DNA from: a virus
Strand: one strand, 5' to 3'
Length of the DNA stretch: 64,000 bases
Virus record (IMG/VR): IMGVR_UViG_3300044619_002381
Coordinates: 39,309 to 103,308 of that record
This document shows, in pieces, positions 7,780-52,922 of the stretch (position 1 is its first letter; every line of letters starts with the position of its first letter). Under the pieces are notes generated by a model, which made no database searches, was not told the DNA's origin, and saw nothing but the letters and a program-made list of their open reading frames with translations. Made by a program: the position numbers and the translations under genes.

Positions 7780-9075
7780 TTATTCTACAATGATTAAATC
7801 ATCAGATAGTGCTAAGTATTCTTGATTCATGCAAGTATTGGGGGTCATCCACAGGGTCGAATAATTATCCACTTGCTCGTATAGGTTAATCAAGTTGTCA
7901 TCCCATGGTCTTGTAAGCCATTCTGCAATGGGTTGGTAATCTGCATTTACAGACTCTCTGATGTCAAAAATTTTCTTTACTTCATAACTCGGGGAAATAT
8001 CAACTTGAGCAAGTTTACAATAGGTGACCGGAACCTCTTTTCCAGCACCATTGATTACTGTAGATGGCAGACTGCCTAGTGGGTGAGCAACAAGGGATAC
8101 TTCTGATTTACCCGTTGATGGTCTCCTCAGGAGGGAGATAGTCCCTGAAACAGAAACAGATTGTATGGAAATTTTGGGGTCTGACCACTCGATTTTCCAA
8201 CCAGTATTAAAAGTAGGTATTGCAATTTTAAACGTAAAGAATTGACCTATACTATCCCTACTAACTTCCACTGTTTCCACAAAAATCCAATCCGGATCAG
8301 GGCAGTATGGATTATCAGGGTGCGGTTGCCCAGGGTTATCAGGATCTTCGTTAAGACAATTAGTTATAGATAGGGTGGCGTTGCCCGTAATTACAGTGTT
8401 AGGTGGACAACGGAAAGTTATCTCAGAAAAAGAAGCCGCCCTGGGGAATTGCCAGTATAGGTATGGAGCCCCGGAATAATTTGGGAATAGCCCATCGTAA
8501 TTTCTCCACTCTAAGGTCGTATCATCGCAAAAAGCATATTTAGGTACGAACCTCCACCCTACCTCAGAATCTGTGCCACTGACGACATTCATTTCGTGAC
8601 CTGATAAGGAGTAATTCTCTACAGAATACAAAGCATAGAAGGGGGAATCGTCATAGGTCAATCTATAAGCTATCAAATATTGGGAATCAGCCATCCCCAC
8701 CAATTCTAAATTTATAATGACTGGACCTATGGAAAGATTACCGTGTTCCCAAACTACGGTTCCAGGCTTGATGACTAAAAATTTATCGTCCCCTGATGGA
8801 ACAACTTCTAGGGAATTAGGGCCAAACGGACTTTCCCCAGGCGGTAGATACACATAGGCAGACTTTCTATCTAGTCCAAAGTCAATATAGTATCGTTCCG
8901 ATGCAGCAGGTAACCTACCATAAATAGGTCTACCATCTGGTACCCATTCAGTGGGTGTCTCAAACAGGTTATTAGCCTCTTGAAACTGAACGGATAATAT
9001 AGTACCAAATGTAGGATTAGAAGATGTTTGAATTTCTCCCCTGCCCCCATTTAAAGGCGTGATAATCTGGCTCAT
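7780..9075 (-). CDS. Tail/baseplate structural protein (431 aa)
   Basis: A 431-residue beta-rich protein that starts 4 nt inside the end of the J-like gene (ATGA overlap) and ends 1 nt before the 964-residue gene. There is no membrane segment and no clear motif. A Pro/Asp-rich linker (NEDPDNPGQPHPDNP) at about residue 245 separates two beta domains. Translational coupling with the J-like protein argues for a baseplate-periphery component, the position where Mu and P2 encode gpI-like proteins. Confidence 0.7.
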   Translation of the reverse strand: MSQIITPLNGGRGEIQTSSNPTFGTILSVQFQEANNLFETPTEWVPDGRPIYGRLPAASERYYIDFGLDRKSAYVYLPPGESPFGPNSLEVVPSGDDKFLVIKPGTVVWEHGNLSIGPVIINLELVGMADSQYLIAYRLTYDDSPFYALYSVENYSLSGHEMNVVSGTDSEVGWRFVPKYAFCDDTTLEWRNYDGLFPNYSGAPYLYWQFPRAASFSEITFRCPPNTVITGNATLSITNCLNEDPDNPGQPHPDNPYCPDPDWIFVETVEVSRDSIGQFFTFKIAIPTFNTGWKIEWSDPKISIQSVSVSGTISLLRRPSTGKSEVSLVAHPLGSLPSTVINGAGKEVPVTYCKLAQVDISPSYEVKKIFDIRESVNADYQPIAEWLTRPWDDNLINLYEQVDNYSTLWMTPNTCMNQEYLALSDDLIIVE

Positions 9076-13210: not shown

Positions 13211-16200
13211 TCAGGACAAGATGTTGGTGATCATAGCGCCAGAACCGATAAGACCAGATGCACCGAGGCCAACCAAGTTAACCACACGTTCGATGGTGAT
13301 TTCAGCACGCACGACACGGCGTTCGCGAATGTAGTACTCCAATTTGTTATCGTAAAGGCTCTTTATCCTCTACATCTTTGTATTTCTACAAAGTTCAGAC
13401 TATATCTTTGCCTTACATCCTTATGTAAGACATTAGGCGCTCGTGGAGTTTTCATCTGTTCTAGATTACTAACTCTAGTCGTTGAACGTTCGTTTTCTCC
13501 CGAAAACGCTTCGCTGCTGATTGCCATGGTTTGAAGTTCAAACGTTAGGGTCCCAGCAATTCACCTAATTTCTTTTTATGTCAGACCCCAGTAGTTAAGG
13601 ACGGACAGCGGGTGTTCCTGTGAGTTGATCATTTTTGTTAGCGTAAAGGTTATTTATCCTTCACTTCTTTACATTTCTGCAAAGATCAGACTATATCTTC
13701 TTCCTGAAATTTCTTATCAATCCGGTAACATGACTATCAGGTAGATTTAAGTGTCGTGCGAACTTGCGAATTGCTGGTTTACCCAGCTCTACCCAAAGTT
13801 CAAACAATTCATCAAACCTAGACCATAACTCTTTTCTCGATCTGGGGTTATTTATTCCCCTTACCTTTAGAGACAAGGTTTTCGAGATTTTCAGTTTATG
13901 CTCTTCAGTCATTTTTCTACCAGTCCAGGGATGATTTGACTTATCCTTGAAATGATTTTTATGCCAGTCACTGTTTTTTCTTTTAGCTTCTTCTGAGCTT
14001 CCTAATTTGGGGGAAATTAAACTAATCTCCCTTGAACCTAGCCCCCATTGTTTTGAACTTTTCCAAATTGCCCACCATAATTTTTTATTATGGGGTTGGG
14101 ATAAACTTAAAAGTAAATGGGCTATGTAGTGTTCTCTCCGGGTCAGCATTACTAGGTTTGATACTTCATCATTCCCTCCACAACAAATAGGAATAATGTG
14201 ATGTTTTTCAAGCCCATTTTTGCTTCCCCTTCGTTTGGGGATTGGCCGAAGTAAAAGTAAACGTGATGTGATAAGATTCCAATACCACTTTTCCCATTTA
14301 TTAAGAAAGTGACATTCTATCAGGAGTGGGGCACTCGTGGATGGGTTATTATTTTCGGTATTCACCATCTAGTCGTTGAACCTTTTGACTACAACTCTAT
14401 TATAGCATAGAGTCCGAAATAGTCAACTTGGCTGCTGATTACCATAGCTTTCAAACTTTCGTTTGAAGCCGTAGGCTTCCCAGCAATTCACCCCATTGAT
14501 CTGCGGATCAGGCAGATAATTTGACGTTACCGTCAAACCACGCATTCAACTCGTTTAAAAGAAACGATGTTATTAACATACGTGTAACTGAAGGCCGGAG
14601 TCGCAGCATTAGCACCACCCGCAGGCATGATCGAATCAGAAGGGCCGTTGGGGCTGTAGAACAGGAGGATGCCATTGGCGGGGAAGACAGGCTGCAAGGA
14701 GCCGTCGTTGGCCAAATAACGCCCTTCAGCTACGCGCAGGCCACGCTCAAGACCGAAGTAGCGAGCGATGACATCTGTGTCGATGCTATTGGCGGAGGTG
14801 TACTTGATACGATCAAGGATCGCTTCGTTGGTCAGCAAGAGGTCGAAAACCGAAGTTCCAAGAACAGCGGAGTTCGGACGAATGCCGATCTGGTTGGCAA
14901 CAGCACGCTTCAGGGTCAGGATGTCCTCAATGGGATTAGAGGTTGCACCAGACCATGCGGCAGGGCCAGTGGCTGTGCCATAAGCGGTGTTGAAGGCGGT
15001 CCAGGTTGTAAAACCAAGACCAGTTTGTGAGCCAGGAGTCCCATTGTAGGGCTCGTATGGATTGTAGCTGCCAGTCACTGAAACAGCTTGAGCAACGGTG
15101 TACTCGTAGCTGTTCATTCATTATGTTATCGCGAGGGCTCTTTATCCCTTGCTTCTGCATGTTTCTATGCAGTTCAGACTATATCATCGTTTTGTAAACA
15201 AAACGTCAGGCGCTCGTGTCAGCTTCATTACTGTTCTAGTAGTATGCTGTTAGTCGTTGAACGTTCCGTCAATCCCTTGACGGCTTCGCTGCTGATTACC
15301 ATAGCATCAAACTTTCGTTTGAAACCGTAGGTTTCCCAGCAATTCACCCAATTTTCTAAATGAGATTAATCTCATAGGGCCAATGTGTTTAGCCTAGACA
15401 TCGCGTTGCGAGTCTCGATGGCGCGTAGCATTTGTTAACTCAGCGGCTCTTTATCCACTGATTCATTACCTTGTCGTTGGTAATGTTCAGACTATATTAT
15501 TGCCCCACTATGTACACGATTACTGTACTTTGTAAGACATTGGGCGCTCGTGTCAGCTTCATTACTGTTCTAGTAGTATGCTGTTAGTCGTTGAACGTTC
15601 CGTCAATCCCTTGACGGCTTCGCTGCTGATTGCCCACGCGGGGGTTCCAGCAATTCACCCAATTTATAGTGGACCTACGCTGCGATCGAAATCGTTCGTA
15701 AAAAATAATCCACTTGTGCAGGACCTTCTCCTGCGTTTTCGATTCAATAATGTTATCGCAAAGATTTTATTCTATGCTTCTTTACATTTCTGTAAAGTTC
15801 AGACTATATCTTCACCCCTGTTTTTCTTTCTTAGCTTAGCCATATGCTCACGGGCAATCTGCCTATGGGTTTCAGACTTTTCTTTATCCGCCCAGTACTT
15901 TTTGGCGGACTCACTTCTCTTTTCCTTTTCCTCTTCAGTTTGAACCCTTCCTCTATTAGCTTCGTGAGCTTTTTTAAGTGTTTTTTCGGGCAGGGATTTA
16001 CCCATCTTGGTTTTACTAAGTCTTTCTCGCATTTGCTTGGACTTAGGTCTTCCTTTCTCGGCTGCCCCCGGGGCAATACCGAATGAGGTCTTTTGTAGGG
16101 AAGTAGCTAAAATAGATGTACGTGGTCGGTAGGTAATGGCGCCTTCTCCGCATTTAACTCCCAACATCCTTCTAACTGCATACCAGTGTTTTACTGAGTT

Positions 16201-17979
16201 AGCACCTTTCGCAAGGAGGACATGGGCTATGAAGTGTTCTCGGATTGTTAGTTTTACTCTGTTTCCTTTGGAGTTATCCCCACCGTCACACTTAGGTATG
16301 ATGTGATGGACGTGGTATCCCCTTTCCTTGGAGATTCCTCTATACTTCCTGGAGGAGCAGAGTTCGTGGTACCATTTTAACCATTTGTTAGGGTGCTGGG
16401 CGCTCGTGGATGGGTTATTATTTTCGGTATTCACCATCTAGTCGTTGAACCTTTTGACTACAACTCTATTATAGCATAGAGTCCGAAATAGTCAACTTGG
16501 CTGCTGATTGCCTTGTGTTTCAGAGAAGTCACTCCTGAAACCGTCAGGGTTCCCAGCAATTCACCCAGTTTTTCTATCAGTTTTTCAACTGACGGAGGCT
16601 ATCGATCTAACCTCTTCAGGCAATTCCCAAGCCACTACTTCTTGTTCAAGAGCGTAGGGCTCAGAGTCGTAACGGCTCTGTACATACGGAATGTTAGTCC
16701 CGTAAGCACGGCGGAAGTCGTTAATAGCAAATTGTTCCTTCAATTATGTTATCGCAGGGGCTCTTTATCCCCCACTTCTCTTTGTTTCCAAAGAGTTCAG
16801 ACTATATCATCGTTTTGTAAACAAAACGTCAGGCGCTCGTGGAGTTTTCATCTGTTCTAGATTACTAACTCTAGTCGTTGAACGTTCCGTCAATCCCTTG
16901 ACGGCTTCGCTGCTGATTACCATAGCATCAAACTTTCGTTTGAAGCCGTAGGCTTCCCAGCAATTCACCCAATTTTTCATAACCCCTCACGGAGTTAAGC
17001 GGCATATGGAATACCGAAGCGCAGGATACGTCCTGCACGAGTTGGCGTGTCTACCACCGGTGCTATGAATAATATACAAAACTTAACGTTTTGCTCTGCA
17101 TGTTTCCATGCAGTTTAGACTATATCATCATCTTTGCCTAAGCAAAGAGTCGGGCGCTCGTGGAAAGATTATTCTTGGGTCAGTCACTTTCTAGTCGTTG
17201 AACCTTCTTACTTCACTCTTATTATAGCAACAAGAGACCCGAAGTAAACTTGGCTGCTGATTGCCTCTTTTGCGTAGCAAAAGTAAGGTGTCCCAGCAGT
17301 TCACCCGATTATTCGACAGGGGTCACCCCCTGAAGGAACCTCATTGATTCGCAATGTTGGTAGACGGTAGCATGAAACCTTGCGCGAGGGTGGTGAGACA
17401 TTTGTTAACGTAGAGGCTCTTTATTCCCTACCTCTCTTTGTTTCCAAAGAGTTCAGACTATATCATCGTTTTGTAAACAAAACGCCCGGCGCTCGTGGAG
17501 TTTTCATCTGTTCTAGATTACTAACTCTAGTCGTTGAACCTTCCTTTTCTCCCGAAAAGGCTTGGCTGCTGATTACCATAGCTTTCAAACTTTCGTTTGA
17601 AGCCGTAGGCTTCCCAGCAATTCACCGGATTTTCTTTGTTAAAAACAAAGCCACTCCTTTAAATGGGCAATATGTTATCGCAAAGGCTCTTTATCCCTTG
17701 CTTCTACATGTTTCCATGTAGGCCAGACTATATCATCATCCTATAACTCCCATGCTGAGGAGTCAAGGAGCTGGGCGCTCGTGGAGTTTTCATCTGTTCT
17801 AGATTACTAACTCTAGTCGTTGAACGTTCCGTCAATCCCTTGACGGCTTCGCTGCTGATTGCCTCTTTTGCATAGCAAAAGTAAGGTGTCCCAGCAATTC
17901 ACCCAGTTTTCTGCCATCATTAAAATGACAGGGACCCTAATTAATCCACACCTGCGTAGGTCTGTTGTAGATTCATCAT
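13211..17979 (-). CDS. Major capsid protein, ten exons joined by nine group I introns
   Basis: Reconstructed exons in order of transcription: 17958-17979, 17661-17667, 17347-17398, 17013-17081, 16610-16740, 15708-15744, 15391-15428, 14544-15118, 13598-13629 and 13211-13339. Joined they give a continuous frame of about 363 residues, normal for a major capsid protein, with family-like stretches that cross junctions: LTTLAQGF, GRILRFG|KEQFAIND, ELPEEV|IENAGEG, AQVD|LRAIETRNAM, RVEY|QLTGTPAVRP|EYYIRERR. Each 5' site was set by a P1 helix with a terminal U-G pair and each 3' site by a final G. The junction 17347/17081 is the least certain; FC-ILFIAPVV or a variant 5 nt shorter is possible. The gene follows the head decoration gene. 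Start chosen at tandem ATGs at 17974-17979, with AAAAGGA about 12 nt upstream. Confidence 0.85.
13340..13597 (-). ncRNA. Group I intron 9 of capsid gene (258 nt)
   Basis: P1 pairs exon GUCCU with GGGGU and the intron opens with UAAC, as many phage introns do. S element at 13396-13406, 3' end CGAUAACAAAUUG. It is the shortest of the nine. Splicing joins VRP to EYYIRERR, the last exon. No clear P2 hairpin is seen. Confidence 0.84.
13630..14543 (-). ncRNA. Group I intron 8 of capsid gene, with HNH ORF (914 nt)
   Basis: P1 pairs exon GUUGAAU with GUUUGAC (seven pairs, three wobble, terminal U-G). Two hairpins follow: UUUGACG/CGUCAAA, which overlaps P1 and would be an alternative fold, and AUCUGC/GCAGAU as P2. 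The S element (13687-13697) contains the TAG stop of the HNH ORF at 13691-14368. Splicing gives GAA U|AU CAA, encoding EYQ within a capsid-like segment. Confidence 0.87.
13691..14368 (-). CDS. Intron-encoded HNH endonuclease (225 aa)
   Basis: An HNH homing-type endonuclease: the KHHIIPICCGGND...NLVMLTRREHYIAH block at about residues 55-83 carries the paired histidines, the Asn and the final His of the HNH fold. A NUMOD3-like DNA-binding segment (HPWTGRKMTEEHKLKIS) lies near residue 145, with a helix-turn-helix-like C-terminus. Such enzymes cut intronless alleles and drive intron homing. The start codon lies directly after the intron R element and the TAG stop is inside the S element, so the gene occupies the P7-P3'-P8 region. 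Its first 13 residues are identical to the other intron ORF. Confidence 0.87.
   Translation of the reverse strand: MVNTENNNPSTSAPLLIECHFLNKWEKWYWNLITSRLLLLRPIPKRRGSKNGLEKHHIIPICCGGNDEVSNLVMLTRREHYIAHLLLSLSQPHNKKLWWAIWKSSKQWGLGSREISLISPKLGSSEEAKRKNSDWHKNHFKDKSNHPWTGRKMTEEHKLKISKTLSLKVRGINNPRSRKELWSRFDELFELWVELGKPAIRKFARHLNLPDSHVTGLIRNFRKKI
15119..15390 (-). ncRNA. Group I intron 7 of capsid gene (272 nt)
   Basis: P1 pairs exon GGCU with GGCC (terminal U-G); P2 is a perfect AUGAGAU/AUCUCAU hairpin. S element at 15175-15185 and 3' end CGAUAACAUAAUG. Splicing joins AGG CU|A AUG to continue the capsid frame into the largest exon. Confidence 0.87.
15429..15707 (-). ncRNA. Group I intron 6 of capsid gene (279 nt)
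   Basis: P1 is unusually long: exon AGUGGAUU pairs with GGUCCACU across a loop of about 33 nt, with two consecutive U-G pairs; the reading frame requires cleavage after GUGGAU. The separate P2 hairpin of the other copies is not visible here. S element at 15488-15498. A stretch of about 85 nt around the R element (15546-15634) is identical or nearly so to intron 7. Confidence 0.84.
15745..16609 (-). ncRNA. Group I intron 5 of capsid gene, with HNH ORF (865 nt)
   Basis: P1 pairs exon GAGGU with GCCUC (five pairs, terminal U-G); P2 is a UCAGUU/AACUGA hairpin. An HNH endonuclease gene (15799-16437) fills the region between the R and S elements, so P7.1/P7.2, P3' and P8 all lie inside the coding sequence. 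The splice junction GAG GU|A AUC restores the capsid frame. About 70 nt upstream of the ORF match intron 8 nearly exactly. Confidence 0.88.
15799..16437 (-). CDS. Intron-encoded HNH endonuclease (212 aa)
   Basis: HNH endonuclease with HVHHIIPKCDGGDN...NRVKLTIREHFIAHVLLAK at about residues 41-75, the standard catalytic block. The C-terminal half is highly basic with Lys/Glu-rich helices and probably binds DNA. It shares the N-terminus MVNTENNNPSTSA and the upstream 70 nt with the intron 8 ORF, but the rest has diverged, suggesting an old duplication or a shared start cassette provided by the intron core. The stop TGA overlaps the intron S element. It probably mobilises intron 5. Confidence 0.87.
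   Translation of the reverse strand: MVNTENNNPSTSAQHPNKWLKWYHELCSSRKYRGISKERGYHVHHIIPKCDGGDNSKGNRVKLTIREHFIAHVLLAKGANSVKHWYAVRRMLGVKCGEGAITYRPRTSILATSLQKTSFGIAPGAAEKGRPKSKQMRERLSKTKMGKSLPEKTLKKAHEANRGRVQTEEEKEKRSESAKKYWADKEKSETHRQIAREHMAKLRKKNRGEDIV
16741..17012 (-). ncRNA. Group I intron 4 of capsid gene (272 nt)
   Basis: P1 pairs exon CGGU with GCCG (terminal U-G) and P2 is AACUCC/GGGGUU with a GUGA loop. S element at 16798-16808. The joined exons read GRILRFG|KEQF, which supports both splice sites strongly. The core is almost identical to introns 2 and 7. Confidence 0.88.
17082..17346 (-). ncRNA. Group I intron 3 of capsid gene (265 nt)
   Basis: Proposed P1 is GAAU/GUUC with terminal U-G; P2 is a perfect CAGGGG/CCCCUG hairpin. 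The S element at 17116-17126 follows the family. It is the most divergent copy: it lacks the conserved stem-loop between P9 and the 3' splice site found in the other eight, ends ACGUUAAG, and carries its own AAGUAA-rich P6 region. The exact 3' splice site is uncertain by 5 nt. Confidence 0.78.
17399..17660 (-). ncRNA. Group I intron 2 of capsid gene (262 nt)
   Basis: P1 pairs exon CCAUUU with GAGUGG (six pairs, terminal U-G), leaving a 7-nt exon upstream. P2 is a perfect CUUUGUU/AACAAAG hairpin. The S element lies at 17454-17464. The 3' end is GUUAACAAAUG. The R element flank is GUUCAACGACUAGA, and the core from P4 to P7 is nearly identical to introns 4 and 7. Confidence 0.85.
17668..17957 (-). 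ncRNA. Group I intron 1 of capsid gene (290 nt)
   Basis: First intron in transcription order. Conserved core elements are visible on the minus strand: Q-like AAUUGCUGGG (17890-17899), R element GUUCAACGACUAGA (17812-17825) and S element GAUAUAGUCUG (17724-17734), which pair as P7. P1 pairs exon GACCU with intron GGGUC, ending in the required U-G pair, and a P2 hairpin lies at 17912-17930. The intron ends CGAUAACAUAUUG. All nine introns share this architecture, best described as subgroup IA. Confidence 0.88.
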
Positions 17980-31102: not shown

Positions 31103-34048
31103 CTAAATGAGTCCTTTCTGGATTGAGTCATACCGGAAAGTTAGCTTACTGACAGCACCCAATTCAAATAGTTGAGTCATTGAGTATTCAACCCCAGGTG
31201 GTTCATCACCCCCAGACTGATTGGATGGAGTTACCGTATTCTCTTTTGGGGACTTCCGGAGCCTATCATCAATGGCAACCGAGGAGAAAAACGCACGGCT
31301 CAATGGTAATTCGGGTATTTCCATCGCGTAGTGGAATAAACACCAAGTGAAAAGGTGGGCAATCTGGAATAACACGGCAAACTGCTCTGCGTATTTTTCC
31401 GGTGTCATAAAATGCAGTTCATCATGGATGCTAATTATGAATCGGTAGGGGATCTTAAACTCTTCGGCCAGCCATGCCACGGCAGTTAAGGTGATAGACA
31501 GGATTTCGGACCCTGAAGCTTGAATTGCCCAGTTGGTCCTCCCCGTCTTAAAATCATTGCCGACTGCAGATGGCATCATGGCCGTTGAGATTTTTGTCCC
31601 CAAACACGGCAACCGGGGGGTCCCTGGCCCCATGGAAATTCTTTCCATCATATTGAAAGCACCTGAGTCTGATCCACCTTCGTATTTGCCGAACCTTAAG
31701 ACCCCCTTCTTAGACGCAATAGCTTTAAGGGCAAAAGTTTTGACCGCATCTTCGTCTTTATCGGGGAAGGTCATTCGGATTGGGTTACTAAGGGCTCTGA
31801 CGCTCCCGCCATACAAGGTAGCAAATCCTACAATCTTGGCCAGGTCTCTAGCTATTTTAAGCATAGTGTCTTTTTCCTTATCAATTGGAGACACCCAGTA
31901 GCCATCACGGGAGCGGCAATCATCGCTGTCTTCAGGTTTTTGCTCATATTTATAGCAAATCCCCAGGGTCTTATCCCAAATTAGACCATCATACAATTCC
32001 GGGAAGATCGCTCGGGCCAATGCAGTGTGAGGATCAGTACCATTCTCTTTAGAACCAGAAAGCACGTTATACCCCATGGGCGAACACCCAATGAAACCGC
32101 CTTCCCATTTATCACTATAGATAGACGCAATCTGCATCTCTTGGCCGTCATAGTCCGCACTAATGATTTTCCACCCCTCCGGGGCCTGTACACGGGTCTT
32201 AAGCTCGGTTCCGATGCGCCAGCTCTTGGTAGAGCACATGGTGGCCATAAGGCTCTCTACGACCCTACGGGTGACGGTTCCGTGGCAGACGATCTCTGGC
32301 AGGGTAACGAGGTTAGGTTTTCCCAGGGGGTTGGTGGCCCCCATGACAATACGGCTTTTAACTCGGCTGCGAACTGATGTCCAAAAACTAATGGCATTAG
32401 CAATTTCCAGTGCCCTTTTTGCCTCGGGTAAGTCACTACTTAGTCTTCCAACTTCCATGTGAGTAACGAACTCTTTAGAGAATAGGCCGCCTACGTTTTC
32501 GCCGGGTTTCTTAGGGTGTGGGATTCTATCCAGGGTGCCGTCTCCCGTAGTAAAACACCAACCTTGTCCATCTTCCCATATGATGGGGGTGCCTTCCCAT
32601 TTTAGTTTCAATAGGAAATGCGATAGTTTGCTTTTAACACCAATCTCCTTATCAGGGTCCTTCTTATAGGGCCTCATCCAAGTGGGGACCCATGCGTAGA
32701 CACCCTTGATAGACTTCACTTCCCAATCTAATTGGCGAATCCACGGGTCTTTTGACACCCATTTACTTGCCTCTTTGACCCCAATTTCCTTTGTTTCGTG
32801 GCTATCTACTATTTCCTTCCATGAATTGAAAGTATCCCATAGCAAAGTTTTACAAAGACCGGTCATTTCCTGGTTATGGCTGTTATAGACTTCTTCAGCC
32901 CCTTGCACCCATTCAAACCAGTTGTCCACTAGCGGCACCACAGACCCATTCAGGTGGTAATGCCCGCAAAGCCCCACCATTGATGGTGTACTATCAAGGT
33001 ATTTTGGCCATAGTGCCTGGAATAACTCTGAAGTATAATAAGCGTCCTTAATGGCGTAATCAACTGTCTCGGCTAGTACCTTATTGATTTCGGAAAGCGT
33101 ATCAGCGGTGACAAAAATGTTCCTAATTTCCTTGTCGGAATCTGATAGTGGCTTTACATCGCCATCGTCAAAGAAAAATTCTTTTGCCCGTTGAACATGG
33201 AAGTTGTATGTTTTAACTAGGGAGTTTGTGCTCCCCCTGTCAAGCCATTCCGGAGAATACTTAAGTTTCCGCTTCTCATCATCATCAAGCAAATCAAAGT
33301 CCTTTTCAGCCAGCGCATAAAGCCACCTCTGACCTGATGCTAAGCCTGATACGCCAACGTGCGCTGACAGGGTGTCAAAGTAGAAATTTTCCGGTTTGGT
33401 AAAATCTAGCGAATAACCCTCTTGGGCCCTCACACGGTCATAGGATATATTGTGGCCAATGACAAGCCTGTCAGTCCCAATTGGAATAAGTTTAAATTGA
33501 TCCCAATCATTTTGGGGAATATCAAGGTCAATCAGCTCGGCGGCTAACCAAATATAGGCGGCCCTATCACTTAGAGCAGTTCCAATAATGGGAAAGGCCC
33601 CACCTTTAACGAAAGTTTCCGTGTCGAATGTAAATACTTCTTCCTCGGGGTAGGGTACTTTTCTAGTTTGCCATTGCTTGTTGGGGCCATCCCCGATAAG
33701 CTCATACCGTGTCCACCCCGGTTGAAATACTAAATCGTTGATTGACGGGATCTTTGGTAGGGCACATTTGGCAAATTTATTGCCTAGTTCCTTATAGCGT
33801 CCAACTTGATTTTCTGCAATCTTTTCAAAGTGGTCGCGGATATTGTTAGCCTTTAGGTTAGGCAGGGGGACTGGCCCATCATAGATGCTTTCGGGATAAT
33901 CAACGGGGGCCTCAATCCCAAATTTCCTCAAAAGGGAAACGGCCTGGTCCTTTTGCTTGCTATTCATTTCGGGCCTATAGTCAGATCCAAAAATCTTTAG
34001 GTGCAAGTCATCGGACAAGACCGGGTAGCCAAGGGCAGTAGTTTTCAT
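31103..34048 (-). CDS. Family A DNA polymerase, mitochondrial Pol gamma-like (981 aa)
   Basis: A replicative polymerase with an N-terminal 3'-5' exonuclease (Exo I FDTE near 141, Exo II GHNISYD near 200, Exo III YAIKDAYYTSELF near 333) and family A polymerase motifs: A, SADYDGQEMQIA near 630; B, around KIVGFATLYGGS near 738; C, SIHDELHF near 874. Many segments match mitochondrial polymerase gamma rather than T7 or Pol I: SGLASGQRWLYALAEK, NWFEWVQGAEEVYNSHNQEM, WAIQASGSEILSITLTAVAWL, and the end FFSSVAIDDRLRK ... TPSNQ. It lacks the long gamma spacer insertions. It is 981 residues against about 1,240 in human POLG. The stop is TAG; 54 nt upstream lies another gene. Confidence 0.9.
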   Translation of the reverse strand: MKTTALGYPVLSDDLHLKIFGSDYRPEMNSKQKDQAVSLLRKFGIEAPVDYPESIYDGPVPLPNLKANNIRDHFEKIAENQVGRYKELGNKFAKCALPKIPSINDLVFQPGWTRYELIGDGPNKQWQTRKVPYPEEEVFTFDTETFVKGGAFPIIGTALSDRAAYIWLAAELIDLDIPQNDWDQFKLIPIGTDRLVIGHNISYDRVRAQEGYSLDFTKPENFYFDTLSAHVGVSGLASGQRWLYALAEKDFDLLDDDEKRKLKYSPEWLDRGSTNSLVKTYNFHVQRAKEFFFDDGDVKPLSDSDKEIRNIFVTADTLSEINKVLAETVDYAIKDAYYTSELFQALWPKYLDSTPSMVGLCGHYHLNGSVVPLVDNWFEWVQGAEEVYNSHNQEMTGLCKTLLWDTFNSWKEIVDSHETKEIGVKEASKWVSKDPWIRQLDWEVKSIKGVYAWVPTWMRPYKKDPDKEIGVKSKLSHFLLKLKWEGTPIIWEDGQGWCFTTGDGTLDRIPHPKKPGENVGGLFSKEFVTHMEVGRLSSDLPEAKRALEIANAISFWTSVRSRVKSRIVMGATNPLGKPNLVTLPEIVCHGTVTRRVVESLMATMCSTKSWRIGTELKTRVQAPEGWKIISADYDGQEMQIASIYSDKWEGGFIGCSPMGYNVLSGSKENGTDPHTALARAIFPELYDGLIWDKTLGICYKYEQKPEDSDDCRSRDGYWVSPIDKEKDTMLKIARDLAKIVGFATLYGGSVRALSNPIRMTFPDKDEDAVKTFALKAIASKKGVLRFGKYEGGSDSGAFNMMERISMGPGTPRLPCLGTKISTAMMPSAVGNDFKTGRTNWAIQASGSEILSITLTAVAWLAEEFKIPYRFIISIHDELHFMTPEKYAEQFAVLFQIAHLFTWCLFHYAMEIPELPLSRAFFSSVAIDDRLRKSPKENTVTPSNQSGGDEPPGVEYSMTQLFELGAVSKLTFRYDSIQKGLI

Positions 34049-34107: not shown

Positions 34108-34431
34108 TTAGGACACGGAGTCCAAAGGTGGTGGTACGAGGCTGTCGGCAACTGGGGAAAGAATCGCACTAAAACCATTGCCAAATATACGTTTTGAAGG
34201 CTGCGCCCATCGTGGTTGGTTTCCTAGCCAACTATGGACGTAATAGCTGAAAGTTACGGGCCTGCCTAAAGTGTCACTGGGGCCATTGCCTGATGTGCCT
34301 AAGAAGTAAGCAGAGTAAATGTTGCTCCACCCCATGTAAGGCTTGGCTATGATGTTGCCGTATTCACTTACTGACTCCTCCCCAATAATGTCAGCTACGG
34401 CTTTTGCCATTACTACTGTAAGTGGTACCAT
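34108..34431 (-). CDS. Hypothetical protein (107 aa)
   Basis: A 107-residue protein with an amphipathic N-terminal helix (VVMAKAVADIIGEE) followed by an aromatic, Gly/Ser-rich region and a Pro-rich end. The M8 codon is an alternative start. It overlaps the coiled-coil gene by 19 nt and precedes the polymerase. No family recognised. Confidence 0.55.
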   Translation of the reverse strand: MVPLTVVMAKAVADIIGEESVSEYGNIIAKPYMGWSNIYSAYFLGTSGNGPSDTLGRPVTFSYYVHSWLGNQPRWAQPSKRIFGNGFSAILSPVADSLVPPPLDSVS

Positions 34432-35336
34432 TCTTCCTCTCTTTCGATTTCTTCAATTTTACCCCTTACCCAAGTTGATTCCGTATCCTCTGGGTCGGCA
34501 TCTAGTTGGAAATTAATTGATTGGTTTAGTTTTTGAAAGCTTACTTCAAAATCCTGAAGACCTGAACTTATGTAAACATCCTTTCTATTTCTCTTGTAGA
34601 TGTCAAATACGTCATCAATTTTTGAAAATTCATGGGGGCGGCATTCCGGGTGCTGCTGCCACTTTCTCATTTCGAAGAATGAAAATGGCTCATCGATTTC
34701 CCATGATTTATCTTTGCCTTCAAAAAGTCTAATAAGGGCGTCCCTCTTCCACCAATTGCTTACCCTATCGATATAATACTCCCATGCAGTTTCGTCAGTC
34801 AAGTAAGTATCACAATCTTTACGGATTGACTCAAGTTCTTTTTTACCGTCGTTTATGACATCCATGGTAGCTTCAGGGAGCACACCAAATAGGTACTCAG
34901 GGCGGCACTCATTGATGCGTTCATACACACTGGGGAACAAAACCGAGTAGCACATTAGCTTATAGTCGTCAGAATCCCCACAAATTAAATCTAAGATGGT
35001 CTCAAAGATTGATATTGACGTTGCGATTTGCTTTTCTAGGTCTGGCTCGTGCTCTTCTTCCCGGTCTGGCAGTCCTCTTTCACTTCTAAGTTCACGAATT
35101 TCACTCATCAACCCCTCAATATCAAGCTTTAGCTTTTTGTTTTCCCTACCCATTTCTCTTTCTAGCCGTGCCTTGTAGGCTTCCACTTCGTAGAATAGGT
35201 TTGTAACTTTTTCTTTTAGATAATCAAGAGATAATGCCGTCTTATTATCTAGTTGGGTGCGAGCATTAAAGTCTTTTTCAACACTGCGAATACTGGAGAG
35301 AACGCTGGTTTTTAATTTGAGGATCGAATCGTTCAC
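34413..35336 (-). CDS. Coiled-coil protein (307 aa)
   Basis: Residues about 40-105 form a long highly charged coiled coil (LEREMGRENKKLKLDIEGL). The C-terminal 200 residues are helical with several Trp and Tyr and may form a globular domain. It begins 2 nt below the upstream acidic gene, making it part of the replication-region transcript. It may be a DNA-replication or nucleoid accessory protein, but nothing in the sequence shows this directly. Stop is TAG followed at once by TAA. Confidence 0.7.
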   Translation of the reverse strand: MNDSILKLKTSVLSSIRSVEKDFNARTQLDNKTALSLDYLKEKVTNLFYEVEAYKARLEREMGRENKKLKLDIEGLMSEIRELRSERGLPDREEEHEPDLEKQIATSISIFETILDLICGDSDDYKLMCYSVLFPSVYERINECRPEYLFGVLPEATMDVINDGKKELESIRKDCDTYLTDETAWEYYIDRVSNWWKRDALIRLFEGKDKSWEIDEPFSFFEMRKWQQHPECRPHEFSKIDDVFDIYKRNRKDVYISSGLQDFEVSFQKLNQSINFQLDADPEDTESTWVRGKIEEIEREEEWYHLQ

Positions 35337-35337
35337 G

Positions 35338-35907
35338 TTAAATTGGTTTGATGGTTGCTTTTAGTTTGTTTTCTGGTTCTCCGGGTTCAGTTGTATCTGA
35401 TGGCCGGATTATAAAGCTGAATTTCTTTTCAGGGTCTGATAATAGGTGAAAATCACCCATAAAATGTTTGCCTTCAGAAGATAACAAAAATGAATTACCC
35501 GGTGTTGGCGGAGAACACAAGGCAATGTCACCTTCTAAATCGGGGTCAGCCTCTTCGATGGCTATTACTAATTCCCTGTAAATGGCAGAGGTCTTAGCCA
35601 GATCCTCATCAGTGGTTATTTCAGCCCTGACTTCATCCTGTACGGCCTCTAAGCGAGATTCTAGACCAGTGTCAAGCTGGATGGTGAAGATGGCTCCGTC
35701 ATTTTCCGACTCAAACATGACTTCCTCAGGTTCAAATTCGCAATCTTCGGGCTCTTGATCTGTGAAATCAAACTCCAGAAGCGAGTAGAAAGCTTCTTTA
35801 AGTGTGTCACCGTCTGGGCCACCCAGATAGTTGGCTATGGCATAGAAGATTTTGGGGTTTGCTAACAATCTGGAGACAGGGTATACAATTGACATAGTTC
35901 GGTCCAT
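35338..35907 (-). CDS. Acidic hypothetical protein (189 aa)
   Basis: A 189-residue acidic protein (many Glu/Asp, for example EPEDCEFEPEEVMFESEND). No family recognised. A promoter lies directly upstream with a predicted start site near 35909, so the first gene of this transcript. If transcription starts there, the first ATG (35907) would be nearly leaderless and the ATG at 35895 has only about 14 nt of leader without a ribosome site. Confidence 0.65.
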   Translation of the reverse strand: MDRTMSIVYPVSRLLANPKIFYAIANYLGGPDGDTLKEAFYSLLEFDFTDQEPEDCEFEPEEVMFESENDGAIFTIQLDTGLESRLEAVQDEVRAEITTDEDLAKTSAIYRELVIAIEEADPDLEGDIALCSPPTPGNSFLLSSEGKHFMGDFHLLSDPEKKFSFIIRPSDTTEPGEPENKLKATIKPI

Positions 35908-35915
35908 CTACTCTT

Positions 35916-35943
35916 AGTATAGCAGGGAGGCCCCGTAAGTAAA
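35916..35943 (-). promoter_or_regulatory. Sigma70-like promoter TTTACT-16-TATACT
   Basis: -35 TTTACT at 35938-35943 and -10 TATACT at 35916-35921, 16-nt spacer, just upstream of 35338-35907. The same -35 hexamer in a closely similar context precedes the tyrosyl-tRNA synthetase gene. Confidence 0.65.
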
Positions 35944-35966
35944 CCCCCCTTGTGTTTTACCCTGTT

Positions 35967-37025
35967 TCACTCTGGGTTTTCTCTAACTTGTTGGATTCTT
36001 TGCTGGGCGATGTCGAGGTACGATTCCTCCATTTCAATGCCAATAAAGTTGAATCCCTCCAGTAGGGAAGCCTTTCCAGTTGTTCCAGAGCCTAAGAATG
36101 GGTCAAGTACGGTACCACCGGGCGGCGTAATTAAGCGGCACAAGTAACGCATTAAATTTGTTGGTTTGACTGTGGGGTGATTGTTGGTTTCACCATTGAG
36201 ACCTTCGTTTCTGTCTTTTTTATTAGCTTTGGCGCAGTAGAAGAACCGGGCGGCGCTGCCCCCGTTGTCGTCGTGGCCACGCACTGTGGATTCACCACCG
36301 TACACGCCATAGGCGTTTGATTTGCCCTTGCCCGTGCCACGATGAGCAGCTTTAGCCGGACCCGTCTGTGGAAACAACCCCACCACCTCGTCGCTGCCAT
36401 CCGTGATCAGGTTAGCGGGCCATCTACCGGTGAGCCCATCGCCGGTCCTGGTTCCGCGTTCCATGCCATAGCTGCCATAAACCTTGTTCTCGCCGCCATA
36501 AGGGCGCCCAAGTCCGTCATTCGTCCCCACCCTGCACCCATCAATGTTGATAGCCCCGGTGCCGTGCTCCAGCACGTTTGCGGCCACGGTGCCCTCTGAG
36601 ATGGGCTTGCGGGCCATGGTGATCGGCTCTAGGGCGGGCTTTAAGGAGCCTCCCCAGCCATCACGCACAGTCTCACCGTTGCTGTCCTTGATGTAGCCCA
36701 CCTTGTTGAATCCACTTCCGTAGACCCACGCAATCATATCACGAATCTCAAACCCCGCATCCTCAATCCGCACCGCCATCCGGTGCTGCGTGCGCGTGCC
36801 AGCAAATGACAGTAAATGGCCACCAGGCTTCAGCACCCGCAGGCACTCTTTCCAAATATCAACACTTGGCACATCATAGTCCCATTTTTTACCCATAAAC
36901 GCCAGGCCATAGGGCGGATCAGTACAAATAGCATCGATACTATTGTCGGGCATTTCCTTTAATACATCAAGGCAATTGCCATGGTACAGTTGATAGCGGT
37001 CTTCGGAAACGTAAGGCTTAATCAT
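35967..37025 (-). CDS. DNA methyltransferase, DPPY type (352 aa)
   Basis: S-adenosylmethionine-dependent DNA amino-methyltransferase: catalytic DPPY at residues 36-39, a RVLKPGGHLL motif, and the AdoMet-binding DPFLGSGTTG at about 308-317, an order typical of beta-class N6-adenine or N4-cytosine enzymes. It may protect phage DNA from host restriction. The central part (about 120-270) is G+C-rich relative to the surroundings, with Gly/Asn-rich loops as in a target recognition domain. It overlaps the topoisomerase gene by 4 nt (ATGA). No partner restriction enzyme is visible. Confidence 0.86.
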   Translation of the reverse strand: MIKPYVSEDRYQLYHGNCLDVLKEMPDNSIDAICTDPPYGLAFMGKKWDYDVPSVDIWKECLRVLKPGGHLLSFAGTRTQHRMAVRIEDAGFEIRDMIAWVYGSGFNKVGYIKDSNGETVRDGWGGSLKPALEPITMARKPISEGTVAANVLEHGTGAINIDGCRVGTNDGLGRPYGGENKVYGSYGMERGTRTGDGLTGRWPANLITDGSDEVVGLFPQTGPAKAAHRGTGKGKSNAYGVYGGESTVRGHDDNGGSAARFFYCAKANKKDRNEGLNGETNNHPTVKPTNLMRYLCRLITPPGGTVLDPFLGSGTTGKASLLEGFNFIGIEMEESYLDIAQQRIQQVRENPE

Positions 37026-39082
37026 GGTAGTTTAATCTCATTTAGGTTTGCAATTTTAGCCCCTTTCGCACCGGGTTTCCCCAGCTTTACAGAAAGGTCA
37101 ATTTTTGTTGGTTTTTTCTTTGTTGATACCCACTCGACGGTAAATGGTTTCTCCCCAAAATACATAAAGACGGCCCCTTCCGGCAACCATTGCTTGCCCG
37201 TGCTTGTGGTTCTACACAGGGTTTCACCATCCATGGCCATAGCCCTTAGTTGACCATCAACCATAAATACAGCCAGGTATTTGCGTCCCGAGACGTATGC
37301 TTCCGGTTTTGCAAGCACCACAGGTGAATACCCTGTGGAAATTACACCCTTAAACGAAGCAGGCACCTTCTTTAGCATTCCGTCCTCGCACACTAGGATT
37401 AGCTTGTCGGTAGACCCCATGGCCAGGCAACCCTTGGGCCCTTTAGACTGTTCAATCACACCTTTCTTCATGTCGATTTTTAAGAAACGTGGTTTTGCTA
37501 TTGGGGTGGTGTCTGAGGGGGTAGTGGCCGGAGGGAGAGACCCTGCGTTGTCTACTTTGGACCGGACCCCTACGGCAACAGGAACATCAATCAAAGGGCT
37601 CCTGCGGGGGACCCCATATTGCTTGTTGATCCTAGCAAGTTCCTCCAACATGTATGACTTTCGGGCACTGACATTATTGGCTTTGTCCCCCACCAGGGAC
37701 TCTAGCCTATTGATGTCAGCCAATAGCTCATTTTTCTCACAAGACATCAAATCAAAGTCTAGGCACGTTAATTGCCGCAACCTCATTTCTAAAATGGCAT
37801 CAGCTTGTTGCTCGGTGAATTTAAGCGGTGCTGACATTAGGGACTGCTTGGCTTCAGATTTGCCATTTGCGGCACGAATGCGCTTAATGACTAGGTCCAT
37901 ACGGTCAATAGCCTTTAGGAGACCATCAACGATGTGTAATCTTTTGTTTTTTGCCTCCAGTTCATGTTCAAATTTAACATCAAGCCGATCCAATCTCCAT
38001 TGGACCCATCGTTGGATGATTTGTACCGGTGATAACTCAACGGGCTTAAACCCATCGATAACCAAGGTTTTAGCTGAGTATTTGCAATCAAGGTCTGTAT
38101 ATGTGTATAGCAACTGCTTTACCAAATTAATATCAGCACCAGGTTTGAGGACCACCACCAGCCTATCCCCACTAATATCACTTTCATCTGTGATTTCGGC
38201 GATCCCTTCAATACGTCCTTTTTCTAACTCACTCTTGATCTGCTCACCAAGTTTCTCTGGATTGGTGCCAGGTGGCAAACAAGTGAAAGTCAAGGTGGAT
38301 CGATCCCTGGCTTTTCCGCCCCTTTTCTGAATACCAGTCTCAACACAAGCCACGCAGCGTATTCCCCCGATTCCAGTACGGGTATAAGCATCTAGTTGCT
38401 CGTCTTGGACGATTTGGGTGCCAGTTGGGAAATCGGGAATTAGAGATAGGCTGGCTTTTTTTATATTATCAAGGTGGGCCTTTTCGGTAGGGGCATCCTT
38501 GCAAATTAACTTAATGGCTTCTACGATGGAGCGTAGACTGTGGGGAGCCAAACGGGTAGCAAAACCCACGGCAATTCCTGAGTCACCGTTTAGCAAAACG
38601 GTTGGCAAAGAAGTATTAAACCTGATGGCCTCCCGCTTACTGCCATCATAGTTTGATTTAGTTTCCCACACTTCCCGGTCTTGTAAAAGAAGTTCCACTG
38701 CGGAAATTCGTAGTCTATTTTCTAGGTACCTTTCTGCTGAGGGGGAGTCAACTGTGCTTCCAATATTTCCATGACAATCAATCCAAGGGACATTATTGTT
38801 CCAAGGAGTAGCCATGTTAATGAGGGCCCCGTATGCAGAGCCATGGGGATGGTAATAGGCACTAGTTAGGCCCGTAGTTCGGGCACACTTTACATACGGT
38901 TTATTCGGAAGCAATCCCTCTTCAATCATTGTCTGAAGGATGCGTCTTTGAACTGGCTTTAGCCCATCGCAAATGTCCGGTATCGATCTCCCGATAAGCA
39001 CGGCCATACTATAGCTCAAATAGTCTTCCTTGAGCTGATCGACGAGATTGACTTCTGTGATTTTTGGCCTAGTTTTAGTCAT
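37022..39082 (-). CDS. Type IIA topoisomerase subunit A (GyrA/ParC-like, 686 aa)
   Basis: N-terminal breakage-reunion domain with SYSMAVLIGRSIPD...DGLKPVQRRIL (about 24-49), YYHPHGSAYGAL at 76-87 and the catalytic tyrosine, Tyr119, in AERYLENRLR. A coiled coil and a shortened C-terminal region follow; at 686 residues it is smaller than host GyrA (800-plus). It would cut and rejoin DNA during replication, but needs an ATPase partner. No GyrB/ParE-like gene is found in the window, so either it lies elsewhere or the host subunit is used. It overlaps the HNH-like gene by 8 nt. Confidence 0.88.
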   Translation of the reverse strand: MTKTRPKITEVNLVDQLKEDYLSYSMAVLIGRSIPDICDGLKPVQRRILQTMIEEGLLPNKPYVKCARTTGLTSAYYHPHGSAYGALINMATPWNNNVPWIDCHGNIGSTVDSPSAERYLENRLRISAVELLLQDREVWETKSNYDGSKREAIRFNTSLPTVLLNGDSGIAVGFATRLAPHSLRSIVEAIKLICKDAPTEKAHLDNIKKASLSLIPDFPTGTQIVQDEQLDAYTRTGIGGIRCVACVETGIQKRGGKARDRSTLTFTCLPPGTNPEKLGEQIKSELEKGRIEGIAEITDESDISGDRLVVVLKPGADINLVKQLLYTYTDLDCKYSAKTLVIDGFKPVELSPVQIIQRWVQWRLDRLDVKFEHELEAKNKRLHIVDGLLKAIDRMDLVIKRIRAANGKSEAKQSLMSAPLKFTEQQADAILEMRLRQLTCLDFDLMSCEKNELLADINRLESLVGDKANNVSARKSYMLEELARINKQYGVPRRSPLIDVPVAVGVRSKVDNAGSLPPATTPSDTTPIAKPRFLKIDMKKGVIEQSKGPKGCLAMGSTDKLILVCEDGMLKKVPASFKGVISTGYSPVVLAKPEAYVSGRKYLAVFMVDGQLRAMAMDGETLCRTTSTGKQWLPEGAVFMYFGEKPFTVEWVSTKKKPTKIDLSVKLGKPGAKGAKIANLNEIKLP

Positions 39083-42059: not shown

Positions 42060-43172
42060 TTACCCCAAGACGTTCAAATCGGGATACAAACTCAAAAGCT
42101 CCTCCTTCGAAAGAACATCATACTCATCTTCCGGTTGCCAGATAATCTCAAGGGCGACTAGGTCATCAGGTGTGATAGATCCTAGGGCTACCAGATTTGA
42201 CTTTAGGCCCTCATGTGAGTCAGATGGCCTTAGGTTAAGATCCCCGTTCGTAACTACCAGGACATTCACAAGGATGTATTCGTTGTCTTGGGTTTTTTCG
42301 TGAGCCTTTTCCTTACTCTTTGAGAGACGACCGTCAACGTTCGTCAAAGTTTCTTCCGACGCTCGGGAACGCTCTTCCATGGAGAACTGGTTAAAGAGAT
42401 CTTCCGCATTGTCAATGGACTCCCTGTTCTTATCACTCCAAGCGTAGATGACCTTATCAGGGTGCCGGAGAAGAGCAAGGGTTGTTTCTTGTAGGATCTT
42501 GGCAAGGCCGTATGAACTGTCGGTATCTCCTTGTTCGGCCATCCGAATTAGGTCAGATTGAATGTCTTTGGCTGACGCAAGTAGGGCCACTCGTTGACGC
42601 ACTACTGTGAGTTTCTTATACTTTTCCTTTTGGGTGCTTAACCACGGGCCTACAAAGTCTTCCCACCCTCCGCACAAAAGAATGCCTGCAATAATTACCA
42701 CACCCATTGAAGCAAGCAGAGTCAAAAGAACCACCGGATTGGCAGGTTGTTGACTGACTGTGGTCACCCGCGAAGGCAAGGAGTATGGGATAGCCGGTGC
42801 AACATTTGGAGTCAAGTCAGGCATGACGATGATGTTAGTGCTCGAATGACTTGGGGGGTTGTAAGAGGGTCTGGGGACAGGTGAAGGAGTGTATGTTCTC
42901 GGTGCAGAGTAACTATGGCTGGGACGGCTGATACTTGGGGAGCTGGGGCGACTATAGCTAGGGGAAGGGCTACGACGGCTGTAGCTCGGGGTGCTAGGAC
43001 GACTATAGCTCGGCCTACTATAGCTCGGGGAGCTTGAGCGGCTGCGAAAGCTACTACCGCCGATGCGACCAGCAGATGCAGCAAAAGCGGGGGACGCCGT
43101 CAATAGCATCGCAACCGTGAGCGTCAGAATTATTGTCTTGAGTGATTTGGTGTTCATGGGTTTCATTTTCAT
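42060..43172 (-). CDS. DUF1517-type membrane protein, cyanobacterial style (370 aa)
   Basis: Signal peptide at 1-31 ending SPAFA, followed by ASAGRIGGSSFRSRSSS, the hallmark of DUF1517 proteins of cyanobacteria and plastids. Residues 45-110 are a Ser/Pro/Tyr repeat region (SYSRPS-like), a membrane helix lies at about 148-168, and the remaining 200 residues form the cytosolic or stromal-side DUF1517 domain. Family function is poorly known, though members are membrane-bound. A phage copy probably derives from a host, and supports a cyanobacterial host. An alternative start is M6. Confidence 0.8.
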   Translation of the reverse strand: MKMKPMNTKSLKTIILTLTVAMLLTASPAFAASAGRIGGSSFRSRSSSPSYSRPSYSRPSTPSYSRRSPSPSYSRPSSPSISRPSHSYSAPRTYTPSPVPRPSYNPPSHSSTNIIVMPDLTPNVAPAIPYSLPSRVTTVSQQPANPVVLLTLLASMGVVIIAGILLCGGWEDFVGPWLSTQKEKYKKLTVVRQRVALLASAKDIQSDLIRMAEQGDTDSSYGLAKILQETTLALLRHPDKVIYAWSDKNRESIDNAEDLFNQFSMEERSRASEETLTNVDGRLSKSKEKAHEKTQDNEYILVNVLVVTNGDLNLRPSDSHEGLKSNLVALGSITPDDLVALEIIWQPEDEYDVLSKEELLSLYPDLNVLG

Positions 43173-51510: not shown

Positions 51511-51756
51511 TTAAGATTCAAATAGGGTAATTTGATCAGGGTCAGCAAGCATGGCCTTTGGTGCTTTTACTTTTTCCGAAATTAGTTGCCGGTTAATCTC
51601 ATCACACCATGTTTTATAAGGGTAATACTCCCTCAACCCAAACGGATAAGCCTCCCGGAGTTTGCTGCGGAGGATTTTCATGTCGGTAGTTCCAACTTCG
51701 GAGATAACACGGGAGATTATCGGAGCGGCTCGCTCTCGCCAGGTTAGGTATTTCAT
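51511..51756 (-). CDS. Conserved small protein WRERAAPIISRVI type (81 aa)
   Basis: An 81-residue basic protein, YLTWRERAAPIISRVISEVG and REAYPFGLREYYPYKTWCDEI, with a helical pattern familiar from phage and bacterial hypothetical proteins. The 4-nt overlap with the synthetase gene stop suggests co-translation. Function unknown. Confidence 0.65.
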   Translation of the reverse strand: MKYLTWRERAAPIISRVISEVGTTDMKILRSKLREAYPFGLREYYPYKTWCDEINRQLISEKVKAPKAMLADPDQITLFES

Positions 51757-52922
51757 TGTAGGGTGAATTTATAAATTTCTTTTTTGGAGAGCCTAATGAT
51801 TTGATTGTTTAGGGTTTCCACTGAGGGGACGATCGTGGTGTCATCCGATACCTTAATTCCGGACAAAACGACAGACCCGGCTCTGATTTTACGTCTGGCA
51901 TCGCTAGTGCTTTTTACCAAGTTGAGTGTTTTAAGCAGGTTGGCTAGTGGTATGGGGAATGTAATGTCATTGAGAAGGGCGGTTGGCACGTTGCTGTCCG
52001 TAGGATCTGCCAGGCCAGAAAAGACGATGGACTCAGCACTCTGTTTGGCATCTAAGGCTTTGTCCATGCCGTGAAAGGTCGCTGTAACTTCGATTGCCAT
52101 TTGCCGTTGCTTTTCACGGGGGTTGGTAGGGAAATCCCCCGGCTCGCAATCAGTAAGTAAAGTGATGAACTCATTGACGGCACTATCGGGAATTTTCTCC
52201 AGTTTGGAAAACATGTGGAGAGGGTGCTCGTTAATCCCGATGGTATTCCCAAGGCTTTTTGACATCTTTTGGTGGCCGTCGGTACCCACAAGAATGGGCA
52301 TTAGTAGCCCGATTTGTTGCACTTCCGAGCCAAGTCCTCTTTGGATGGTTCGTCCGACACTGATGTTGAATTTCTGGTCAATGCCACCTAGTTCTACATC
52401 GGATTGGACAACAAAGCTATCGAAACCTTGCAACAACGGGTACATGAATTCGTGTAGGCTAATTGGTGTTTCGTTTTTTAGACGGTTGGAAAAATCTTGC
52501 TTAGCCAGTAGCTGCTGCACAGTAATTAGAGACTGGAGCTTGATGATGTCGTTGAGTTGTAGCGATGCTAAGTGGGTGGAATTAAATATGATTTCGCATT
52601 TTTCTATGTCAAGGAATTTTCCCATAGTATCCAGAAAGGACTGCCCATTGGCGCTCACTACATCAGGGTCAAGTTGCGGGCGAGTTGTGTTTTTACCGGT
52701 TGGATCTCCGATCCTGGCAGTGAAATCACCAATAATTACAACCGGAGTATGGCCATCTTGCTGGAAGGCACGGAGCTTTCTCAGAAGCACAGAATGCCCC
52801 AGGTGCAAAAAATCTGAAGTCGGATCGAATCCAAGCTTGATGCGTTTTGGTTGTGATAGGAATTGGTTTAGGTTGGTGGCAGGTAGTACATCAACGATGC
52901 TGCTTTGTATGGGTCTTATCAT
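51753..52922 (-). CDS. tyrS: Tyrosyl-tRNA synthetase (389 aa)
   Basis: Class I tyrosyl-tRNA synthetase with HLGH (40-43) and KMSKS (about 218-222), an LGFDPTSDFLHLGH start block, an ARIGDPTGKN loop, a GGIDQKFNISVGR-like Tyr-binding region, and a C-terminal S4 RNA-binding domain (about 315-385). It would charge tRNA-Tyr. It is complete and near bacterial length. A -10 TATAAT ends 7 nt upstream of the ATG, so the message may be leaderless. Phage aminoacyl-tRNA synthetases are rare outside giant phages. No tRNA-Tyr was noticed in the window. Confidence 0.9.
   Translation of the reverse strand: MIRPIQSSIVDVLPATNLNQFLSQPKRIKLGFDPTSDFLHLGHSVLLRKLRAFQQDGHTPVVIIGDFTARIGDPTGKNTTRPQLDPDVVSANGQSFLDTMGKFLDIEKCEIIFNSTHLASLQLNDIIKLQSLITVQQLLAKQDFSNRLKNETPISLHEFMYPLLQGFDSFVVQSDVELGGIDQKFNISVGRTIQRGLGSEVQQIGLLMPILVGTDGHQKMSKSLGNTIGINEHPLHMFSKLEKIPDSAVNEFITLLTDCEPGDFPTNPREKQRQMAIEVTATFHGMDKALDAKQSAESIVFSGLADPTDSNVPTALLNDITFPIPLANLLKTLNLVKSTSDARRKIRAGSVVLSGIKVSDDTTIVPSVETLNNQIIRLSKKEIYKFTLQ

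Follow-up and report, generated by a model that had tools for sequence, protein, structure and literature searches.

Introduction

DNA polymerase gamma (POLG), the enzyme that copies the mitochondrial DNA of animals and fungi, does not descend from alpha-proteobacteria, and a virus source is one of the leading ideas for where it came from. In what follows I consider a gene that bears on this idea, found in the IMG/VR virus record IMGVR_UViG_3300044619_002381 (103,308 bp), of which the 64,000 nucleotides from 39309 to 103308, here called the window, were analyzed. A sequence-only reading had described its product as strikingly similar to POLG and as direct evidence for a POLG-like lineage in phage. 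Two questions arise from this locus: whether the protein truly belongs with POLG or simply carries the motifs of family A polymerases, and, if it does belong, what its relatives can tell us about the source of the mitochondrial enzyme.

A polymerase related to POLG over its full length

The gene is an intact open reading frame of 981 codons, starting with ATG and free of internal stops (Table 1). Its best Pfam match is the mitochondrial polymerase exonuclease PF18136 (2e-61; 208 bits, the cut-off being 26.7; amino acids 61-350), and among the PHROGs it falls into the DNA polymerase family phrog_22619 (1.7e-223). In the alignment all six exonuclease and polymerase motifs (Exo I-III and A-C) are present with their acidic residues. 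The segments that had been named as POLG-like beyond these motifs, namely the stretch after Exo III, the helix before motif C and the C-terminal FFSxVxID..RK..TPS end, all align with POLG; before motif C, QASGSEILSITLTAVAWLAEEF aligns with a 22-residue segment of mouse POLG, and the C-terminal FFSSVAIDDRLRK...TPSN aligns with mouse FFSAVDIDQCLRK...TPSN.

Table 1. The polymerase gene, its motifs and its conserved neighbors (window coordinates)
Feature	Position	Strand	Evidence
POLG-type family A DNA polymerase gene	31103..34048	(-)	Pfam PF18136 + PF00476; PDB matches yeast/human POLG
Exo I motif FDTETFV, aa 141-147	33608..33628	(-)	pairs with FDVEV/FDVET in mouse and yeast POLG; both catalytic acids (D, E) retained
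Exo II motif LVIGHNISYDRVR, aa 195-207	33428..33466	(-)	aligned with mouse POLG LVVGHNVSFDRAH
Exo III motif TVDYAIKDAYYTSEL, aa 328-342	33023..33067	(-)	aligned with mouse POLG LMQYCARDVWATFEV
Post-Exo III segment NWFEWVQGAEEVY, aa 376-388	32885..32923	(-)	aligned with mouse POLG NWERYLTEAQNTY
Polymerase motif A KIISADYDGQEMQIA, aa 627-641	32126..32170	(-)	aligned with mouse POLG VLVGADVDSQELWIA
Polymerase motif B ARDLAKIVGFATLYGGSVR, aa 733-751	31796..31852	(-)	Phe; Tyr in POLG
Helix before motif C NWAIQASGSEILSITLTAVAWLAEEFK, aa 839-865	31454..31534	(-)	aligned with POLG; model helix 834-863
Polymerase motif C FIISIHDELHFMT, aa 870-882	31403..31441	(-)	aligned with mouse POLG FCISIHDEVRYLV
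POLG-specific C-terminal segment RAFFSSVAIDDRLRK...TPSN, aa 918-943	31220..31297	(-)	aligned with mouse POLG
Homologue of S-CBWM1 gp76, upstream of polG, function unassigned	34413..35336	(-)	22.8% identity, E 2e-16, same place
Homologue of S-CBWM1 gp75, function unassigned	35338..35907	(-)	32% identity, E 7e-19
DNA gyrase/topoisomerase IV subunit A, homologue of S-CBWM1 gp73	37022..39082	(-)	51% identity; PF00521 5.7e-96

A more conservative explanation would make it a standard phage polymerase of the T7 or bacterial Pol I type, its likeness to POLG residing only in the family A motifs, since motifs A, B and C are common to all family A enzymes and the general family A model PF00476 is matched, if weakly (1.9e-10). 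The database comparisons and the tree leave this explanation a negligible probability. Against all PDB chains, the strong matches of the full protein are to POLG only and span E 1e-92 to 1e-98 (yeast 4.7e-98 with 332 bits, mouse 2.1e-96, human ~1e-94), and at E <= 1 there is no T7 or Pol I chain nor any other credible match; the polymerase half alone still finds POLG at 1e-57 to 1e-64 and Pol I at 0.1 or worse, and a profile built from 20 phage relatives gives 3.8e-205 for yeast POLG versus 3e-10 for the best Pol I. Direct blastp comparison (E values for T7 and PolA at a database size of 1e8) yields 367 bits for yeast and 349 bits for mouse POLG, only a chance-level 31.6 bits for E. coli PolA (E = 26) and no match at all for T7 polymerase, and 200 shuffles of the window protein reached at most 28 bits against POLG, so that on sequence scores the likeness lies far above chance. 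It had also been claimed that the T7 and Pol I enzymes lack the POLG-type end, and the lengths agree: 105 residues follow motif C in the window protein, versus 50 in T7 and 46 in E. coli PolA, a POLG-specific extension of about 50 amino acids.

Structure prediction and superposition on human POLG, together with a phylogeny that included T7 and Pol I, had been named as the checks, and both place the protein with POLG. An AlphaFold2 model made from an alignment of 20 sequences only (the window protein and 19 metagenomic relatives) has a mean pLDDT of 83.6 and a pTM of 0.83. When this predicted model was searched with Foldseek, the first 36 entries were all POLG, with human 8d33 at E 6.8e-54, TM 0.79/0.80 and rmsd 4.0, and yeast Mip1 at TM 0.75/0.72; the first non-POLG entry was the Pol I of phage G20c (TM 0.37 on the query) and Klenow entries scored 0.29-0.36, so the predicted fold is that of POLG. 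Among predicted viral proteins the same model retrieved G0KYA6 (TM 0.81, 29% identity, 959 aa) and then A0A4Y5TS79 (608 aa), which by length and identity are probably the A-HIS and Mic1 polymerases discussed below. In two trees with T7-like and Pol I polymerases as outgroups, phage and eukaryotic POLG form one clade apart from both (100/100). The window protein is related to POLG over its full length and belongs to that lineage; it falls outside the T7-like and Pol I clades. A strongly supported position inside one of those clades had been named as the outcome that would overturn the POLG reading, and the trees gave no such position.

Membership does not mean identity. Yeast Mip1 and mammalian POLG share 28.8-29.2% of residues with the window polymerase over the full length, with the same domain order, but the mitochondrial enzymes have about 1200 amino acids and mammals a longer spacer between exonuclease and polymerase, and motif A reads DYDGQEM in the phage protein versus DVDSQELW in mitochondrial POLG. 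Motif B, within LAKIVGFATLYG, has Phe (aa 742) at the position of human Tyr951, which is tied to dideoxynucleotide and drug sensitivity. Phe is shared by the Aokuangvirus-like sequences compared and by A-HIS1/2, and Tyr by mouse, yeast, Mic1 and S-TIM5, so the residue varies inside the POLG family and does not decide membership. In family A enzymes Phe at this position goes with discrimination against ddNTPs, and by analogy the window polymerase may discriminate against dideoxynucleotides too.

A cyanophage gene in its usual place

The polymerase is not an isolated curiosity. Among 50,697 phage records its relatives are those of the cyanophages S-CBWM1 (55% identity), S-TIM5 and kin (36%), the Acaryochloris phages A-HIS1/2 (31%) and the Microcystis phage Mic1 (30%), several of which carry the annotation DNA polymerase gamma. 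The closest, gp77 of the cultured Synechococcus phage S-CBWM1 (Aokuangvirus; MG450654), matches over its full length and also has Phe in motif B; the others belong to the same family with all motifs but form separate deep branches, and the window polymerase itself falls within an Aokuangvirus-like clade of S-CBWM1 and metagenomic kin (99/100). The order gyrA-gp75-gp76-polG-gp78 and onward into the tail genes, and further to the sheath, portal, capsid, baseplate and terminase genes, is nearly that of S-CBWM1. The blocks with terminase, portal, sheath, baseplate, gyrA and polG all match, so the two phages are related.

Chance acquisition by a single phage, or an assembly artefact from eukaryotic contamination, would have been a trivial way to explain a POLG gene on a metagenomic contig. 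Its probability is minute when phage structural genes flank polG in the order of a cultured phage and the gene recurs in many independent IMG/VR contigs at 51-100% identity; one scan alone gave 132 related virus stretches, and IMG/VR adds more than a hundred further family members. For bacterial chromosomal homologues, a scan with patterns that would miss Mic1-type genes gave one match in 84,980 species; plasmids scanned for homologues yielded none, and a scan with A-HIS-type patterns gave no match. The one bacterial match, a contig of 9.6 kb binned with Microbacteriaceae, was rejected, because it has the gp75-gp76-polG order of S-CBWM1 and is therefore a misbinned fragment of an Aokuangvirus-like phage.

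The host of the window phage is probably a cyanobacterium. The photosystem gene psbA was found in 6 of 15 related records, and not in the window record (a 103 kb fragment) or in its relative G001. Several other genes deserve mention in their own right. An N6/N4 DNA methyltransferase gene (35967-37025, minus strand; PF01555 1.2e-34) sits between the gyrA and gp75 homologues and has no match in S-CBWM1, and a DUF1517 protein (42060-43172, minus strand; PF07466 8.6e-56) belongs to a family known mostly from cyanobacteria and plants. In the part of the record before the window (record positions 7786-9522), a ThyX-like frame of 578 aa, versus 249 aa for the ThyX of S-CBWM1, aligns in its best piece over only 186 aa, which makes an intein or other insert likely, and two adjacent frames of 470 and 576 aa (35682-37094 and 37180-38910) both resemble the terminase large subunit of S-CBWM1, with identities of 29% and 54%. 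Finally, gp8 of S-CBWM1 (L099 3729-5165) carries the annotation of an SNF2 DNA repair protein. It matches no SNF2 model and has its match in PF12851, the Tet/JBP oxygenase domain (4.3e-18), so that a misannotation is likely, with a hint at modified bases.

Introns in the capsid gene

A separate observation concerns the major capsid protein gene (13214-17979, minus strand), a homologue of the 341 aa gp175 of S-CBWM1, which is split into about ten exons, some encoding only 10-20 residues. About nine group I introns lie at 13376-17967, eight above the Rfam RF00028 cut-off and one at 47 bits, and two of them hold frames (13691-14368 and 15799-16437) similar to an S-CBWM1 HNH nuclease; in G001, whose polymerase is 98% identical, the capsid gene has at least twelve (L194). 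Group I introns are, to my knowledge, rarely so dense in a single phage gene, and no comparable case appeared in the literature searched. This intron-rich pair of genomes also encodes a tyrosyl-tRNA synthetase (51753-52922, minus strand, in the window; PF00579 3.8e-64, phrog_9270 1.5e-74), a gene not found in eleven other related records, some of them fragments, and no tRNA genes were found within the window. In Neurospora the tyrosyl-tRNA synthetase CYT-18 is known to act in the splicing of group I introns (PMC3984707), and with this precedent a splicing role for the phage enzyme is a guess, though one that can be tested.

The putative replicase and its partners

I hold with high confidence that this protein truly belongs to the DNA polymerase gamma family and serves as the replicative polymerase of a large tailed cyanophage from the Aokuangvirus (S-CBWM1) group. 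On this proposal, a single chain would combine a DEDD 3'-5' exonuclease for proofreading at the N terminus and a family A polymerase domain of right-hand shape, joined by a short spacer. The polymerase domain would copy the phage genome with two metal ions, like POLG, while primer, helicase and 5' nuclease would be supplied by other phage or host proteins; a partner like animal POLG2 is not part of it. The enzyme is probably active, and it is probably the main replicase of the phage, with the proviso that the 103 kb record covers only part of a genome that may be near 280 kb, the size expected from the relative with the 98% identical polymerase, so another polymerase may be encoded elsewhere. 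Every record checked has one polG copy per genome, a 279 kb record included, and this single copy speaks against the doubled genome that had been suspected for that contig.

Relatives encode a primase (annotated as such, with a DUF5906 domain) and a 5'-3' exonuclease, and Mic1 also an SF1-type helicase, so their replication partners differ from the mitochondrial ones. A full mitochondrial-type replisome was considered for these phages and rejected, because partner searches in related records gave none: no DnaB/Twinkle-type helicase domain in nine records, where the control performed well, and no T7-type RNA polymerase in 12, a weak result as the control matched nowhere either.

Which phages are closest to mitochondria?

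Phage POLG genes were already published by Chan et al. (2011; doi 10.1093/molbev/msr041), as that work is cited in PMC7156551 and PMC3914683. The POLGs of A-HIS1/2, S-TIM5, S-CBWM1 and Mic1 appeared in print between 2011 and 2020, so the kind has been known since 2011. A phage origin of POLG had been proposed by that year; a 2014 paper, citing Chan et al., repeats the suggestion of a cyanophage enzyme as the possible source of POLG (PMC3914683), and the Mic1 paper reviews the phage POLGs and proposes common ancestry with the mitochondrial enzyme (PMC7156551). The window gene does, as the earlier reading held, directly attest a POLG lineage in phage, but the claim to novelty fails.

What the surveyed literature does not state is that the Mic1-type phages are the specific sister lineage. 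In the tree with outgroups, Mic1 joins yeast and mouse POLG (100/99). When new Mic1-type metagenomic contigs (about 62-74% identical to Mic1) were added to a tree without outgroup, the Mic1-type and eukaryotic sequences again grouped (100/99), and the grouping is supported by the exonuclease half (100/98) and the polymerase half (99/97) separately; with outgroups and stricter columns it drops to 81/76, probably an effect of the long outgroup branch, which is able to join the tree close by. Identity to yeast or mouse in the polymerase region is 46-52% for the Mic1-type proteins versus 37-40% for the window protein. By these sequence comparisons, the phage lineage nearest eukaryotic POLG is that of the Mic1-type Microcystis phages and not the lineage of the window. 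The Mic1 gene has peculiarities of its own: it is interrupted by an intron inside motif A (GADVDS/QELW; L017 10821-11234), a site where two metagenomic relatives have a larger insert with an open reading frame (6369-7265 in L184, and in L186) and a third has none (L182, 4546-7218), and its motif B, YSRRYS, lacks the usual YG.

Shared ancestry alone does not give the direction of transfer. Forcing all phage POLGs into one clade costs 7.9 log units (AU test, p 0.11) and, in a second tree, 2.6 log units (p 0.143); because phage monophyly is not rejected, I claim no direction. The eukaryotic sample consists of two opisthokonts, yeast and mouse, assembled from PDB alignments and lacking parts of the spacer and, for yeast, its end. 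Phages may have taken POLG from a eukaryote, in which case their genes would be uninformative on the source of the mitochondrial enzyme, and both the AU results, which keep an all-phage clade beside the eukaryotes, and the two-opisthokont sample leave room for this. I consider it unlikely, since the two eukaryotic sequences show much less diversity than the phage POLGs, and since the grouping of Mic1-type and eukaryotic sequences apart from other phages, in each half alone too, would then require either repeated transfer or a tree rooted on the branch to the eukaryotes. Descent of eukaryotic POLG from inside cyanophage POLG diversity, with the Mic1 type as closest known sister and the Aokuangvirus lineage as a more distant cousin, is the boldest reading, and I give it slightly under even odds.

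Discussion

The window gene is then a further freshwater cyanophage POLG and not the closest viral relative of the human enzyme. Phage POLGs offer biochemists small POLG relatives to work with, some of which naturally carry Phe and others Tyr at the dideoxynucleotide-sensitivity position. Furthermore, with a broad, freshwater-rich set of cyanophage POLGs in hand, and a Mic1-type branch that lies nearer to mitochondria, the origin of the mitochondrial polymerase becomes a question that denser trees can test.
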